Assembly: GCA_963170055.1 (NCBI GenBank)
Contig: CAUJGJ010000083.1
Span: 1,380,601 to 1,444,600, forward strand
Reading direction: 5' to 3'
DNA length: 64,000 nt
Origin: Halisarca cf. caerulea
Lineage: Eukaryota > Porifera > Demospongiae > Chondrillida > Halisarcidae
Positions within the stretch are counted from its first letter, which is position 1. Each line of letters opens with the position of its first letter. The notes under the pieces are model-generated. The model was not told where the DNA came from. It worked only from the letters and a program-made list of their open reading frames with translations, and ran no database searches. Of the stretch, positions 3,301-25,700 are shown piece by piece. The position numbers were made by a program, and so were the translations under genes.

Positions 3301-6300
3301 CTTGTATTTATGATTACTATTTGCTCATGTAAAATGCACTTTCATTTTCAGGAGAGAGGATTTCCTCCAGTGGATAGAAGCACTTCCTGATACACAGACA
3401 CCTTCCTGGCTAGGTCTCCCAAACACTGCTCAGAAAGTAATGCTCAGATTAAAAGGTTTGTATCTTTTCTCTTTCAAATTACACCAATATTATGAGGCAA
3501 ACACACTTCTCTATGTACACATGTAAAATATGTACTCATGTACAGTACATGACAAAAGTAACTTATGTTTTTCCGCAAACGTACGCACAGAAATCCCCGG
3601 AATATTAGTTAAACATCCGCGCAGTAAACCGCAAACATGCATTGTCAAAGTTCCGTGCCCGCAGAAACATCGATCACAATACATGTTAGGATTATCAATA
3701 ACACACACATGCTTAAACACAGAAGTTAAAAACTTAACGACTCGATGGTTCGCCATTCTTTTCTGCAACAATTGGAATAACTTGGGAAAGATGGCCTATG
3801 AACTTGGAACAAACATCGGGCTTCAGAGTCTTCCAAAACTCTCTGATCCCAGCCTCCAGTTCTTGGAGATCCTTGGGTTTTACTTTTGCCCTAAGGTGGG
3901 TTTTCATCACTCCCCAGACCAGCTCAATAGGGTTCAACTTTGTTCTGTCGTAGCTAATCATTATTGCAACTATTGGGAGTAAGTTTTATTATATCGATAT
4001 TGCAGCGCACTAATAACAGCCATTTTTGTCAGTATTTTTGGAGTTTTCGCAGACTACAGTATATACGCCTATGCGCGGACTAAGCATTTTATTTCCACAA
4101 AATTTCCGTGAATTCCTGTTTCCTTGCATTGTGGAAGTTGGCGGAAAAACATAAGTTACTTTTGTCATGTACTGTATCTATGTACTGTATGTACAGTGTA
4201 TCATGCTTATTTCTAACTTGATTAGCTGCACACGTTGTTATGTTTTACAGGAACTACTGTTATTGCCAAACTCTTGAAGATGCAGCTGCTAAGTGATGAT
4301 GATGAAGTGGTCACCACGCTAGAAGCAGATAAAGGGTATGTATTCCGTATTACAGGAAGGTTGCTAGATTCATAACCAGGACTATGTGAACTTTTAATGA
4401 GGTGCTACTGTATGTGTACACATGTGGCTGAAGTGTTTTAGGAAACCATTGTTTACATATATAGACAAATAGCAATAGACCCAAACTACTACAAATAATG
4501 CAGTACCTGCCTGTTAATTCCATATTTTATCAGTCTTTGTGTGTACTGTTGTGTAAGATTTATGATGTAATTTTTTTAGTGTGAACATTATTTGCTGTAT
4601 TGATTTGATAGCATTTTACGGAATTACACTACCACTGTTTTCAACAGTCTGCCTGTAGCAGTGGCTGGTACTCATCTTAATTTAGCAAACTTGGGCAACC
4701 AATACATACATGTGTACTGTATGCATACGTACAGTAAATGCCAGGCCTCAGAAACCAAACTTATACAGGTGTCATGCACATGGCCTGTGATACTTGAGTG
4801 AATTGTTTGTGTATGGAATTTCTCCATGATTATTGACCTATGGTATATTTATGTACTTACAATACATGTGTTAGTCAGATGTGCATATGTATGTTTGACT
4901 GTACCAATCCCCTGCATTGGGTATTTATGTTGCCCTGTATAGTGGTAGAACGATAAAGCAAAGCTTCTTCTCAACTACAGTAGTTAAAATACAATACCTT
5001 TACTGTTGTTTGTGGTTTGACGATTTTATCATAACTGTAGTGTTAACTGTCTTGTTAAATGCAGTAAGAAACCCTTGGCTGGAGGTGATGGAAGACCTAG
5101 CTGGATGCTTACTTTGCTGGGAACAGCTCAGAAGTGGATATCTATTTTGCCTCAGGTACCAAATGATTGTGTTTAACAATTATCCAAAATTATCTTTCCC
5201 TAGAAATTTGATGTTGCTTTTTGAGCACATTGATGTTTGGTTGTAATTGCTTATTATTTGGAAAGTTTATTCCGTACATTGCAATATCTTACACTTGCAT
5301 GAGTATTTTGTGTTCCTTCATCATTTTCCCTTGTTTTCAAGTTTAGTGTTGGTCAGATCTTTTATCCTTGTGCTTTATGTCTTATGGGTGGAATGATAAT
5401 AAGTGTACTATGTACAAGTGATTGCATGCTTATTGATTTTACAGTACATATACCATTTAATACCTGCTGCTATGCATTTAAGATTATTCACCTCCCTATT
5501 ATAGAAACTCAATCCTCTCCGAAGAACTGCTGACAGTTTAAAGGACCCTATGTTTCGATTTTTTGAGCGCGAAGTATGTACTTTGATCTACATGATTGTG
5601 CATCAATCTTTGCTGACATTTTCGTTCAGTAGATACGTACATCATTCATGTACTGTTGTATGACATATGTAGATTGCTTCAGGGATGAAGTTGCTGAAAG
5701 TTATATGTAGAGATTTGCTGGATGTTGTCAAAGTCTGTGAGGGGAAAATGAAGCAAACCAATTATCTGCGAACACTCATTAGTGATTTAGTTAAAGGTGT
5801 GGTAAGCCTGAATGCTTTCTATCTGTATGAAAACATGCAGTACTTTAGTATGCTATTGCATACATTTGTGCTCCCACTCTCTCCATTATCCTTCCATATG
5901 TTGGGATTGCGGAGACAAGATTGGTCTTCACGTTGTGCTGTCTGTCATCTGCTTTCTGCTTGCAATTTGTATGGTTACTATTAAATGTCAGTAGATAATT
6001 TTATGGTTGAAAGTGCTGCAAAAATTGTTGTTCTGTTGTTGAACAAAAGTAATACTCAAGTCTTTTGGTGTTTGTCTTTATCAATGCTCAAAAGAGATTG
6101 TGTACAGTACATGTGTGCATTGTATATACATATGTACTCAAAAGTGTCTGGTTGGTGTACAATGTTTACCATTCTTTTAAGCATGTATTGTTTTGATTGG
6201 ATCTCTTTGTCTTGTTTCAATTTGATAGGAATCATCCCAGAAACATGGAAATGCTACACTGTCCCTCCTGGTTTAACTGTTTTGCACTGGGTAACTGATT

Positions 6301-19700: not shown

Positions 19701-22700
19701 CAAGGACCTGTTATGTGTTACTGAACAATTGAGTTGGTCATGTAACGAGGAGGATATCGAACAGTTGAAATAGCGTTACTTGTGGTATTTACAATAGCCT
19801 ACTGTTTGTCGAGTACAACTATCATATTACTTTCAGTAACTTTACCATGAACAGTTCCACCCTGATGAAGAAACAATGTGGATATATGCAAAATTTATCA
19901 CAGAAGATGTCACACAACAGCTACAGCATAGCTAGCATGATCATTGGCCTCTTCTCTTTTATGAACGAATGCATCGTAGACTGCAGGCATCTAAATGCCT
20001 TGATAGATGTGAAACCCTGAACGGCAGTCAATACCTTTTAGTTCTCAAGCCACCACTTTTCAATACAATGTAACAACAGATATCACTCTAAACCTTTGTC
20101 ACCTCTCTAAAGATTGGTCTCAAATTCTAAATACAGTATATTCGCTGCCAAAAACTACATGCAGTATGCCATTCCCATTAAATTTGTGTGCATGAAGTGT
20201 GACGAACTTTAGAGAGAATACAGTGTATATAGAACATAATGGTGCTGTAAGAGTCACACATAATTTAGAGAATCTTCTTTTACAATAAATACTTTCATAA
20301 AACTGCAACAAAGTAGGCCATACCTCTCCTGTCAGGCACAAATCATGTAATTTCCCAATGCTCTTAATGGCCTCAGCAGAAGGATCAAACATTTGCACAG
20401 TAGTACCTGTGGTATTCCGCCATGACCAAACTAAAAAAAAAACGTACAAGAACATACTAAATCTGGTATACAAATAATGATGGTATACAGTACTGTATGT
20501 ACTGTGCATCAATAATCACCTTTGTCACTTTCTGTAAGCACTAAAATATCCTTTGGTGACATTACCAAATCTTGAGCCACATGACAGGCAGTTAAAGGGC
20601 TGTCACCGGTGATCATGACTGCCTGTGCACAATCAAGTAGTGATGTGTACGTAAATGTGTAGAAATGTGTACAAAATAGGGAACATACAGTGGAAAGACC
20701 AACTTTGAATGGAGGATGTACAGTATTATTGATTTAGTTATAACTCCCAATCAGGAAATGTACAGCATTGATGAAGGGCATCGCTATGTATGCATGTGCT
20801 GTGATCTATAGGTCACAGATGAGTACATGGATCAGACATAACAGCACACTTTAGCCTATGAGCCATTCATCACGACACAACTAGGCACAAACTGCATACA
20901 CCTTCATGCCAACATTGCATACCTCAAAATAATAAGAAAGGCACAACAAGGTAAGAATGACTCCATTAAAATTATAATGAAGCAAGATACACAAAATCCT
21001 GCACTCAATTTCAGAAGCTCTGCATATGCAACACATGCAGTATTGTTGTAACATTGGTTATGTATTTCATTGTGATGCTTTAACATTCAAGGTCATAATA
21101 TCTCATGCTCAATATTAGAGAGGTCGTCCTTCAGCCAATCTCATACACACAAGCAAACAATCATATTCAATCAACTGGTGCGTGGCGGGTATAGTTTGTG
21201 CTCTTGTCCTCAATTTTCCTCTTAAGTAATAATTAATAATATAATAATAATAATTTCTTATTTTGACTGGGTGGCCATTAGCCTGAGGCTACTACTAAGG
21301 CCCCCAGTATCCCACACACTCGCTCACACACACACAATCAAATTCAATCAAATTCAAATTGTTTGGTGGCTGCGAGTGAGGGGGAGAAGGGGAAAAACAC
21401 CAAAAGGCCACTTCTGATGGGGATAAACCTTCATCTATCCCATAACCCAAGCTCAGAATAACTTGTTCACCAGCTATGCCACTGACACTCCACTTTGACT
21501 CACCACAGACACACACCAAGGTCATCCTTGGTGCACAAACACCAACAGTTTTTAAGGTATACTAGAGATACAAGTCACAAAACCATTGCAAGAAGGTATG
21601 CAGCATATGTACCTTATGTGAAGAGGAAATAACAGAACGAATACACTTCAAGGAGCCTTTGTTGATAGGACTAGATGTAACCACAAATCCTGCAAATTCT
21701 AAGCCACATTCAATATCATCTCGATGCATAGTCTTGACCTGAACAAAGAACAATAAAATGGTACTAAATTAATAATGATGATAATTAAGAATAGGAATAG
21801 GCAGTAACAGAGAATACAGTACAAGTCAAAAGTAACTCCCAGTTTTCCGCAGGCACAGCGACGGGAATCTGCAGAAATTCCGCGTAAGTCTTCGATGATC
21901 GCCGCAGTTAGCAGAGAGGAAATCCGCGGACTGATAATTTCACTTCCGCGTACAAACACAGATAATTAGTGGTCGCTGTATTTATCCGCGGTCGGCATCA
22001 AAGTACTAGATAAACAAACGAAGTTGAATGCAAGCTTTGATTATTAGAATTCACAAGACAAATATTATCGTACAGAAATATCGAAACAAAATAATGGTAA
22101 TAGTAATAATAAAATATATTTAATAAGAGTCTAATGTCCAGAAGGGCCGCCACCGACTTCCAACACAACAGGAAGGACTTTCTGGAGATGGTCAATGTAC
22201 CGCGAACACAATTCTGGCATCATCCTCCCCCAGTATTCCTTGATACCTGCCTTCAATTCCTCGAGGTTCTTTGGTTTGACCCTGTCCCACAAGAAAGTCT
22301 TCATTGAACCCCAAACCATTTCTATTGGGTTTAAATCCGGACTTTCTGCTGGGCTTTTCCACCAATTGATGTCATTAGCGTCGAAATAGTCTCGGATATA
22401 GCGGCTAGTGTGCTTTGGGTCATTGTCCTGGTAGAGATGATGTCCTGCCGGATACACTTCCCGAATGAAGGGCAACAGAGAAGCGGTCAAAATATCAGCA
22501 TATCTGACGGCTGTCAGGATACCATCGAAGATGACTATCTGAGTCGCTCCTCTCTTTGAGATCCCTGCCCAGACATGAATCTTCTGCGGGTGCTTGTGCT
22601 TGCACTTAAGCTTTCTTGCAGAGCCTTTCTTCCTATAAGACCTTTGTCTATGTCGGTCCAATTGCACAGTGCATTCGTCCGTGAAGATAACGTCATCAAA

Positions 22701-25700
22701 CATTTCGCTTTCATCGAGCCTTTCCTTGCACCACTCGAGCCGCTTAGCTTTGTTGCCTACTCGAATGGCTTGACAATAGTGTGCAGTACTGATGGTCCAC
22801 CCCAGGTCTTTTCTGGCTCTTGCAAGTGTCCTTTTAGAGTAACCGCAATGTCTTCTTCCGAAGCGGGCGATCATGAGATCCAGTAAGTCTGCAGCTGTTA
22901 GTTCATTATTCTCTTGCATCTTTTTCTCGATAAACAGCTGATGTGACTTAGGTATCATAGTAGGCCGGCCACTTCTAGGAAGATTCTGGGTGTGTCCGGT
23001 TGTCCTCCACTTTGCAATAGTAGCCGCTATCGTTTTCCTTGTCGTCACAATTCCTTCCAAAGCAAGGGTTCGTTCCAGTTCACTTAGTGTTAGCTTTCTG
23101 TTCTCCATAAATATAGTCACAATTCTCTGTCTCTGATAAGCGGACAAAGGCATCTTGAAATTCTCTTCTCTGATCGATCGATGAATATAACTTGATTCTG
23201 AATCAATGGATGTTTGGCTCTAGAATTTATACCTTCTTTAGGGGGATACCACCATTCTAATTTGTCCAATCAAATCATACTGTAGATTCAGTCTGCCTAT
23301 CACCTCGGATATCTGCAGAATTCTGAGGTGTAAATCTAAGCGGACCTCTGTGTAGTGATATACCCTCTAGCTATGATTTGATTGGATCGTCTAAAAACCT
23401 TGTTATCCCTCCTATACTGTATAAAGTCGAACTACCAATTGGAAATCATTGTATTGGAATAAAGTGAAGCAGTTAAATACGTCAAGTTATCAAGGGTTTT
23501 CAAAATGTCGGACAAAGTAATGGTGGAGTGGATTGGAGAGCGTTCGAAAGGGAAGAGGTCGTTGGTGAAGTGCAGTGATGTGAAGCAAGGGAAAGTGTGC
23601 AATGGTCCGGAGAGAAAGTCAAAGTAGTGTGGGGCAAGTCAAAGAAACTTTTCAATGCCATCATCGTTGGAAGGGAGTGCGGATTTCTATCTCCTGACAT
23701 TCCACAACAGAAGTCTGCCATGCCTCCAACTACTACCGAAGACTTCAGCTTCGAGCTCGGAAGTCCTGGACCCGTTAGATCATCCAGTAGTGCTACGGAA
23801 CCTGAGCAGAAACTGCTCACATTGGAGGATATTCGTCCGCTCTTCTCTCATATAGAGGAAAGCATTTCTACTATAAGAGATTCTGTTGACGGACTATGCG
23901 CTCGACTTGTTGCTAGAATGGACAAGATCGAAGATTCTATCGCTACCCTAGGCGATCGCCTAGATAGCTGTACTACTATGGTAACTGCAACACCGGCCTT
24001 GTCAGACGACACACAGATACAGAGAAATATCCCCGGTACTCCAGTGACCTGGGTGGAGCCTGAACGTCCTATAGTGCCTACTGCAACCCCCCTACAGGAT
24101 GTTACTAATATTGCCAGACCAACAACCAATGATGCCTTACCCGAGGAATTGGTACTGGAATGCTTACAGTCTTGTAAGACTCGGAGGAACCTGGCTGCCC
24201 GACTTTCTGCTCGAGTTTTTACTGATGCCGAGAGAATCGTGAGTAACTGCCGGGGTATGGTAGGCAAGAAAGCCCTTAACCAGCTCAAGGTGAGGGCCAT
24301 ATTCGGTACCTGCATCCAGAAGTACCCCCTGGAGAGAATGGAAACCGTGGCAGGCGCTGAGAAGGAAATGAGAATAGTGATAGACGAGGGCTGCAGAAAG
24401 CTAAAGCCGCGACGTCCTCTCAATAACTAGCTCTATTTGTTATTATTGTCTTTATTATGCTATCATGACGTTTGTCTCTTATTATATGACGATTTCTTAT
24501 AATATTCTTTTTATAATGACTCTTTTCCTTAAATTTGTGATGTCTAATAAACATTAGTGTTTTGCATGAGTTGATGATTTTCTCAGCCTCTGAATGATCG
24601 AACTGTATGTTAGCAAGGTTTCCGTGGATGTTGTTAGCGCAGTTTTCCGCGGATATTAGCGCAGTTTTCTGCGGATGTTAGCACGGTTTTCCGTGGATGT
24701 TACTGCGGTATTGCACAGATGACAGCGCAGTAATCTGCAATTAACAGATTCCGAGGTATGTGGGGAATTGCGGAAAACCGGGAGTTACTTTTGACTTGTA
24801 CTGTACGTATATTGTCACAATAATCTACAACTAAGTCAAAAATATCTCAATATTCGATATACGATGTAATAGGTATCATTTTGATATGCAGTCTTTTGAG
24901 ATGAAGAGCTACTTAAATTACGTACATTCACAAATTCAGAGGCTCATATAGGTAACTCAAAGATACCTTATACACAAAAATAGCTAGGCTCAAAGATACC
25001 ACAATTTAGCTTAGGCTGACTGCATCAGTCCTTCAAGACAACAGCAATATAGATGGATCAAAACATAAAACTGGCAATGCCGAAAACAGTGCTGAAAACT
25101 GTGTGAAAATTGTACTAGTATATCATATCATGTTATACATATATGTATGTATAACAGTACATTGCATTTACAGAAATTTTCACAATACACAATTTGCAGT
25201 ATTTGCAGATCAAGAATCATTTGTAAAGCTTAGTCTAACAAAATTCAATGGACATCACACTTATGTAGGTCGATCAGTCTTTTAATTTCCCTTACATACG
25301 TAAGTTTTATGACAAGAGAACTATTTCTGCACTATTTTTCACTTTGGTTACAAGTCTGGTGTGTTCTAGTCATGCATTTCCATCCCCCTCTCCATTCACA
25401 TCCTCAGTAGAGGAAGATGTCAGTAATACAGTACTATGGTATTTCTGTTGCATGTGTTAACAGGAAAGAGCTTCAAAAAGGATTGAAATTGAGCAGAGAA
25501 ATCACTCAATGAACAAAGCAAGCAAGAATTATTGGACTGCATGGTATCTCTTTAAGTGGGAGCTTCCCATAATTAAGTTATTGGAAAAGATTACAGGGAG
25601 CTGGCAATCCAATAACTAAAGAAACAGCTGTGTAGTGGCAGTACGAATACACCCTAGTATTAATAAGAACGTCAGAAGTCTGAATCAGAGAAATCTCAGC

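Follow-up and report, generated by a model that had tools for sequence, protein, structure and literature searches.

The window analyzed here, a 64,000-nucleotide stretch of the genome of the sponge Halisarca cf. caerulea (contig CAUJGJ010000083.1, positions 1,380,601 to 1,444,600), contains a Tc1/mariner transposon at 21817–24803 that carries a second gene, divergent from the transposase gene and encoding a protein with a predicted BEN domain. In this genome, both genes lie within one pair of ends, are copied together, and have co-diverged over many families in two layouts. Such a pattern speaks for a two-gene transposon lineage of long standing and against a gene picked up by chance. We give an even chance to the reading that, in this old lineage, the BEN protein binds arrays at the element ends and/or the central promoter, and so steers the chromatin or the transposition of its own family. 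The window element has the following features.

21815–21816, no strand: left TA target duplication (repeat search; the TA-CAGT start recurs in L002 and L003, two further full-length copies)
21817–21851, plus: left terminal inverted repeat, 35 bp
21817–22166, no strand: left subterminal zone, dense in CpG (first 300 bp: 19) and with CGCGGA/CGGAAA-type motifs
22131–23153, minus: intact Tc1-like DD34E transposase, 340 aa (open reading frame (ORF) list, Pfam, PDB profile match)
23154–23504, no strand: intergenic region with TATA boxes, a 15-bp inverted repeat, a near-palindrome and a degenerate 16-mer
23505–24430, plus: BEN gene, frame-shifted here by five extra bases near 23604–23608 (alignment of copies)
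23514–23674, plus: predicted N-terminal Tudor/SH3-like barrel, residues 4–55 of protein P0001, interrupted in the window copy by the insertion
23822–24001, plus: long helix, probable coiled coil, residues 105–164 of P0001
24137–24406, plus: BEN domain (Pfam, profile and fold comparison)
24454–24803, no strand: right subterminal zone, dense in CpG (last 300 bp: 14)
24608–24701, no strand: four repeats with TCCGCGGA-type cores (repeat search)
24769–24803, minus: right terminal inverted repeat, 35 bp
24804–24805, no strand: right TA target duplication

The inverted arms at 21815–21851 and 24769–24805, found by repeat search, are 37 nt long including the TA and 97% complementary. Because they carry TA at their outer edges, the limits of the element are exact. 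The TA-flanked ends proposed in the initial annotation are confirmed by this alignment and by the same ends in two other full-length copies. Genome-wide searches covered the 194-Mb assembly that contains the window. They returned these two copies (C412 and C290; aligned as L002 and L003) at 96%, with different flanks, as well as partial copies. Both coding regions are kept between the ends of both full-length copies, and a repeat search of the window element found no inverted ends belonging to the BEN gene itself. The proposed two-gene family that includes a BEN protein is thus strongly supported: none of the three outcomes named beforehand as fatal to it (full-length copies lacking the gene, no BEN fold, or a BEN gene with its own ends) was found. 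In L003, a 38-bp inverted repeat with two mismatches (1463–1500 and 4896–4933) lies outside that copy's own ends, which suggests that this copy sits within another inverted-repeat element.

Merging of the BEN profile matches, minus the nine weakest rows (E 0.05 to 2) and plus three from a Pfam-model search, gave 56 BEN places. Transposase places, from 119 scored of 390 candidates, number at least 109 after merging. Among the matches listed, 44 of the 56 BEN places have a transposase place no more than 5 kb away, against an expectation of 0.36. Forty-three of these pairs are on opposite strands (20 divergent, 23 convergent) and one is on the same strand. With Pfam's own BEN model, 21 places exceeded the cut-off, 17 of which belong to the 44 pairs. 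Three of the omitted weak rows (two at C3, one at C172) are within 5 kb of a transposase row, and those on contigs C292, C181, C386 and C62 have no transposase row among the matches listed. The copies at C37:876667–881912 and C260:4598–9844 share both of their 20-bp flanks exactly. Probably, then, the assembly holds a single insertion in duplicate, and the count of divergent pairs may be one too high.

Gene layouts track transposase clades. In a transposase tree of 36 rows, all 13 divergent rows group together (82/73, open fork) and the 21 other ingroup rows form a second group (98/96), of which 11 have a convergent BEN or BEN-like gene and 10 have none that was seen. Among those 10, the three with enough flank (L053, L054 and L068) hold degraded BEN-like pieces on the opposite strand, recognized by eye and, for L054, also by a profile that includes divergent seeds (23.2 bits); L055 is masked, and the flanks of the other six are too short. 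The BEN-like gene of L056 was likewise judged by eye, and the core profile did not find it. Distances between BEN proteins follow those between transposases, with Mantel r of 0.868 overall (n = 20), 0.819 for divergent (n = 10) and 0.934 for convergent pairs (n = 10), each reached by 0 of 2000 permutations. An N-terminal module appears to be common to both clades: profile–profile comparison with two convergent sequences gave a probability of 90.5, and direct profile search for the module in convergent sequences was not significant (E 0.26 and 0.38). The simplest history would be a single BEN acquisition before the clades split, with gene order changed later.

The second gene encodes a protein that, judged by profile and model, is BEN-like at its C-terminus. 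Its start is ATG 23505, and the five frame-shifting bases are absent from four other aligned copies; the 277-aa reading of the window copy begins at GTG. L003 and the partial copy L005 keep the ORF intact at 300 aa; it is broken in the window copy and L002. The opposite-strand BEN ORF of the initial annotation therefore stands as to its domain, and gives way as to its frame, start and length. A complete BEN protein would not be made from the window copy, which would have to rely on that supplied by other copies. Against Pfam PF10523 (gathering cut-off 23.2 bits), the window ORF scored 16.6 bits (E 0.009) and P0001 15.8 bits, and relatives L023, L063, L038 and L059 passed with 28.1–30.6 bits. 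A search with a profile built from relatives hit BEND3 at 3e-9 and BANP at 4e-4; in fold comparison, the 19 top-ranking matches are all BEN domains. Profile and predicted structure agree on the fold. The N-terminal barrel looks Tudor-like in the model. An NCBIfam scan of P0001 matched no model; an AlphaFold2 (AF2) model of the convergent protein L038 was poor (pLDDT 44.6) and was not used.

The transposase matches Pfam DDE_3 (1.2e-20) and Sleeping Beauty in the PDB (2.2e-24), and 34 residues, counted by eye, separate its second D from its E, which bears out the intact 340-aa DD34E enzyme described at first. Its helix-turn-helix matches fall below their cut-offs, and the only NCBIfam models to match are IS630 and IS3 transposases.

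The window outside the element is CpG-poor, with an observed/expected (o/e) ratio of 0.38 and a mean of 4.1 CpG per 300 bp (maximum 21; 203 stretches). For ten elements measured, the 300-bp ends contain 10–35 CpG (o/e 0.84–1.88), and the middles have o/e of 0.47–0.73. Of the four ∼22–24-bp repeats initially described in the right end, a 14-bp core does recur four times (24619 to 24701), but the 22-bp unit recurs only three times (24634–24699). Motifs in the ends differ between families. CGCGGA/CGGAAA marks the window element, L002, L003, C412:6900 and C412:6905, a level not attained in any of the 200 dinucleotide shuffles made for each; element middles have none, except that of C412:6900 (two and three). 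ATCGCG/CGCGCA marks C37, C226, C144 and C412:8180 (reached by 0–6 of 200 shuffles), and GCGAGG/CGCGAG marks C30 (0 and 1 of 200). Because these motifs were read from the same sequences that were scored, other copies and families serve as replicates and not as a blind test. The inverted repeat/direct repeat arrangement typical of Sleeping Beauty does not account for the subterminal repeats, because the repeat search listed no further, internal copy of the terminal sequence.

How might the two proteins work together? In the mechanism we favor, one gene provides a Sleeping Beauty-like DD34E transposase, and the other a protein with a Tudor-like barrel, a long helix (in the divergent clade) and a C-terminal BEN domain. 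The targets of the BEN domain would be the family-specific, CpG-rich repeats within both ends, joined perhaps by the central promoter in elements of the divergent clade; the long helix may cluster protomers, and the barrel may contact chromatin. Most likely, the net effect would be that the element's own DNA is kept accessible (anti-silencing) or that transposition is regulated, as with plant VANC. More specifically, each family could own a CpG-rich end 'address' read by a co-evolving BEN protein, making a sequence-specific anti-silencing system in Tc1/mariner and a counterpart of VANC. We offer this tentatively, and hold it to be possible rather than probable. PMC5735166 and PMC10398659 describe VANC targets as noncoding sequences, often repeated in tandem, that vary from one related element to another, and the end arrays here likewise lie in noncoding parts and differ between families, with the caveat on motif choice given above.

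The same arrays would serve a co-factor of transposition: bound at subterminal positions, the BEN protein would recruit the transposase to the element ends or carry it into the nucleus, much as the Myb-like second protein of PIF/Harbinger does. The pairing and co-divergence of BEN protein and transposase, and family-specific arrays at both ends, agree with such a role, which would suit both layouts. We nevertheless regard it as unlikely. The transposase looks self-sufficient, with its DDE_3 domain and intact DD34E (the sub-threshold helix-turn-helix matches included), and Tc1 relatives such as Sleeping Beauty are not known to require a second protein.

The region between the divergent genes bears on another alternative, in which the BEN protein is a transcriptional regulator only, repressing or balancing both genes and limiting copy number. 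The TATA-like boxes noted initially are both in the window element: one TATAAA (23226–23231, minus) lies 72 bases ahead of the transposase ATG at 23153, and the other (23420–23425, plus) lies 79 bases ahead of the BEN ATG. The transposase-side box, however, is lost in L003. A 15-bp inverted repeat (23265–23279/23372–23386) encloses a near-palindrome, CACCTCGGATATCTGCAGAATTCTGAGGTG (about 23301–23330), and the two, a possible operator, are kept in L002 and largely in L003. A 16-mer, CGGACYYARTTGTAAT, occurs with 0–1 mismatch in one or two copies between the genes of nine divergent loci from several families (L015, L016, L018, L020, L022, L023, L025, L026 and L031, some of them near-copies of each other), and was not found at that stringency elsewhere in the 182 kb of loci scanned. 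Its conservation, although synonymous sites are saturated, marks it as a constrained site. Weaker forms occur at C412:8180 (three mismatches) and in the window family (23341–23356, four mismatches). The 16-mer and, in the window family, the inverted repeat and near-palindrome favor a regulator. On the other hand, the window family holds only the four-mismatch form, the 16-mer could be the site of a host factor, and 23 of the 44 pairs are convergent and so have no common promoter, which rules out the initially suggested control of a shared promoter as the general BEN role. Overall, we consider regulation alone quite improbable. As a separate candidate, we scanned for CCAATTGG, which we take to be the Insv-type binding motif; it was rejected as the BEN target, with one copy in the window element (23435–23442) and none in 12 other elements scanned, including L002 and L003.

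Between divergent families, the BEN gene has accumulated 0.76–0.87 synonymous and 0.44–0.49 nonsynonymous changes per site (five comparisons); a conserved protein with saturated synonymous sites implies long-term constraint. Within families, the ratio of nonsynonymous to synonymous change (dN/dS) is 0.53–1.22 for BEN, some pairs having only 4–5 differences, and 0.63–0.70 for the transposase, values consistent with decay after insertion. That a host BEN gene was captured once and is now a passenger with no role for the element is the least probable account: weak within-family constraint, the broken frames in the window copy and L002, and an apparently exon-split, host-gene-like BEN gene in the convergent C30 family would fit it, but BEN has been retained, and has co-diverged, in both transposase clades, where the transposases average ∼40% identity, and its protein is conserved between families.

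Several observations weigh against an old lineage whose BEN protein acts on its own ends or promoter. Twelve of the 56 BEN places have no transposase within 5 kb among the matches listed, and no BEN match was seen at 65 of the at least 109 transposase places. In the window family, none of the three full-length copies has both genes intact; other families do. P0001, P0002, P0003 and L018 fall below the PF10523 cut-off, and a search with that model gave no BEN match in P0004 or L015. The within-family dN/dS values belong here too. A nested 1.2-kb element with no visible BEN gene also has CpG-dense ends (19 and 22 per 300 bp), so CpG density alone is not diagnostic, and the end arrays could instead be transposase sites, since motif class follows the phylogeny common to both proteins. 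In the three full copies, CpG has changed to TpG/CpA at 2.8–9.1% versus 0.3–1.6% substitutions elsewhere, which fits methylation of resident copies. This decay is alike in the ends (14 of 240 CpG bases) and the middle (41 of 570). The ends are therefore not visibly protected, and the CpG decay of resident copies gives no sign of the protection from silencing suggested at the outset, nor of shielding of the CpG ends from methylation. Finally, PMC10206803 reports that in vitro binding of CGCG by BANP and BEND6 is much the same whether or not the site is methylated; for the Banp motif in cells, methylation-dependent regulation is described in PMC9363121.

The element is best placed as a variant within Tc1/mariner. 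It shares with the Sleeping Beauty-like branch of this group (IS630-Tc1-mariner) the DD34E/DDxD triad in a DDE_3 domain, the TA target and short inverted ends; terminal repeats and target duplication, judged from filled sites, are present in the convergent relative too. It adds the BEN gene, a size of ∼3.0–4.2 kb, and CpG-dense subterminal zones with family-specific repeats. Tc1/mariner elements are usually minimal, one-gene parasites, a habit that is not defining; here a second gene is kept in relatives. Ciliate members with extra ORFs are already known: in PMC7325037, Tec/TBE elements combine a Tc1/mariner-type DD34E transposase with such ORFs, and the one named is a site-specific recombinase, whereas here the extra gene is BEN. 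VANDAL elements belong to a different transposase superfamily, and VANC is not known to be related to the BEN protein. Arabidopsis VANDAL/VANC resembles this lineage in having an element-encoded second protein; binding and loss of methylation are demonstrated for VANC, whereas here they are predicted from sequence. PIF/Harbinger also pairs a DDE transposase with a second DNA-binding protein, but its transposase and target site differ from those of Tc1/mariner. BEND3 and BANP share the BEN fold; they are host chromatin factors, BEND3 with several BEN domains (BEN3 and BEN4 in PDB names), and neither is known to have a transposase partner. PMC10206803 describes BEN domains as inserting their last helix into the major groove, and gives CpG-containing motifs as the sites used by BANP and BEND3. 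Targeted open-literature searches returned no paper whose title or abstract describes a Tc1/mariner element with a BEN gene; BEN domains and transposons are mentioned together in PMC5704228, PMC4190172 and PMC4574769, among others.

The BEN protein family probably occurs in other genomes, because proteins found by protein searches match this genome only distantly: P0002, P0004, P0007 and P0009 share at most 41% identity with the fetched loci (best four matches each), and in a whole-genome search P0002 reached 44% across the greater part of the protein, with short stretches as high as 58%. Two of six relatives of the convergent BEN proteins are named reptile BEND3. Among IMG/VR and GTDB contigs, 44 and 128 pattern matches were obtained, none confirmed as relatives.

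The convergent element C30:109873–114117 is 4245 bp long, with 22-bp ends and five copies. Four comparisons gave 99.9–100% identity over 2.3–2.9 kb, each alignment beginning no more than 6 bp from the left end. For the one pair followed out to both ends, identity is 99.4% over the whole element, and similarity stops at the element's limits. Its BEN gene probably holds an intron, since the N-terminal module lies in a separate open frame upstream. Two candidate BEN-only mobile units were rejected. C412:4034635–4036016 (L028 1137–2518, 1382 bp) derives from the C412:6900 type by an internal deletion, with loss of the transposase and the BEN start. C412:6688792–6689883 (L024 1083–2174, 1092 bp) is probably a deletion derivative of another family; it keeps a C-terminal piece of BEN and matches two of four families compared, at the ends only. 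A divergent BEN element in the L043/L020 region has another Tc1-type element nested in it at G000:C29:326967–328158; the inner element has different ends, TACGGTAGGAGGCAAAAG, and a partial transposase.

These paired proteins and target arrays form a natural set for testing how DNA transposons handle chromatin, in a genome that is CpG-depleted and probably methylated. That a DNA-binding gene of chromatin type has persisted in this lineage over deep divergence and in two gene orders also bears on the origin of the BEN domain. If the anti-silencing reading is true, host BEN proteins would share ancestry with proteins used by transposons.

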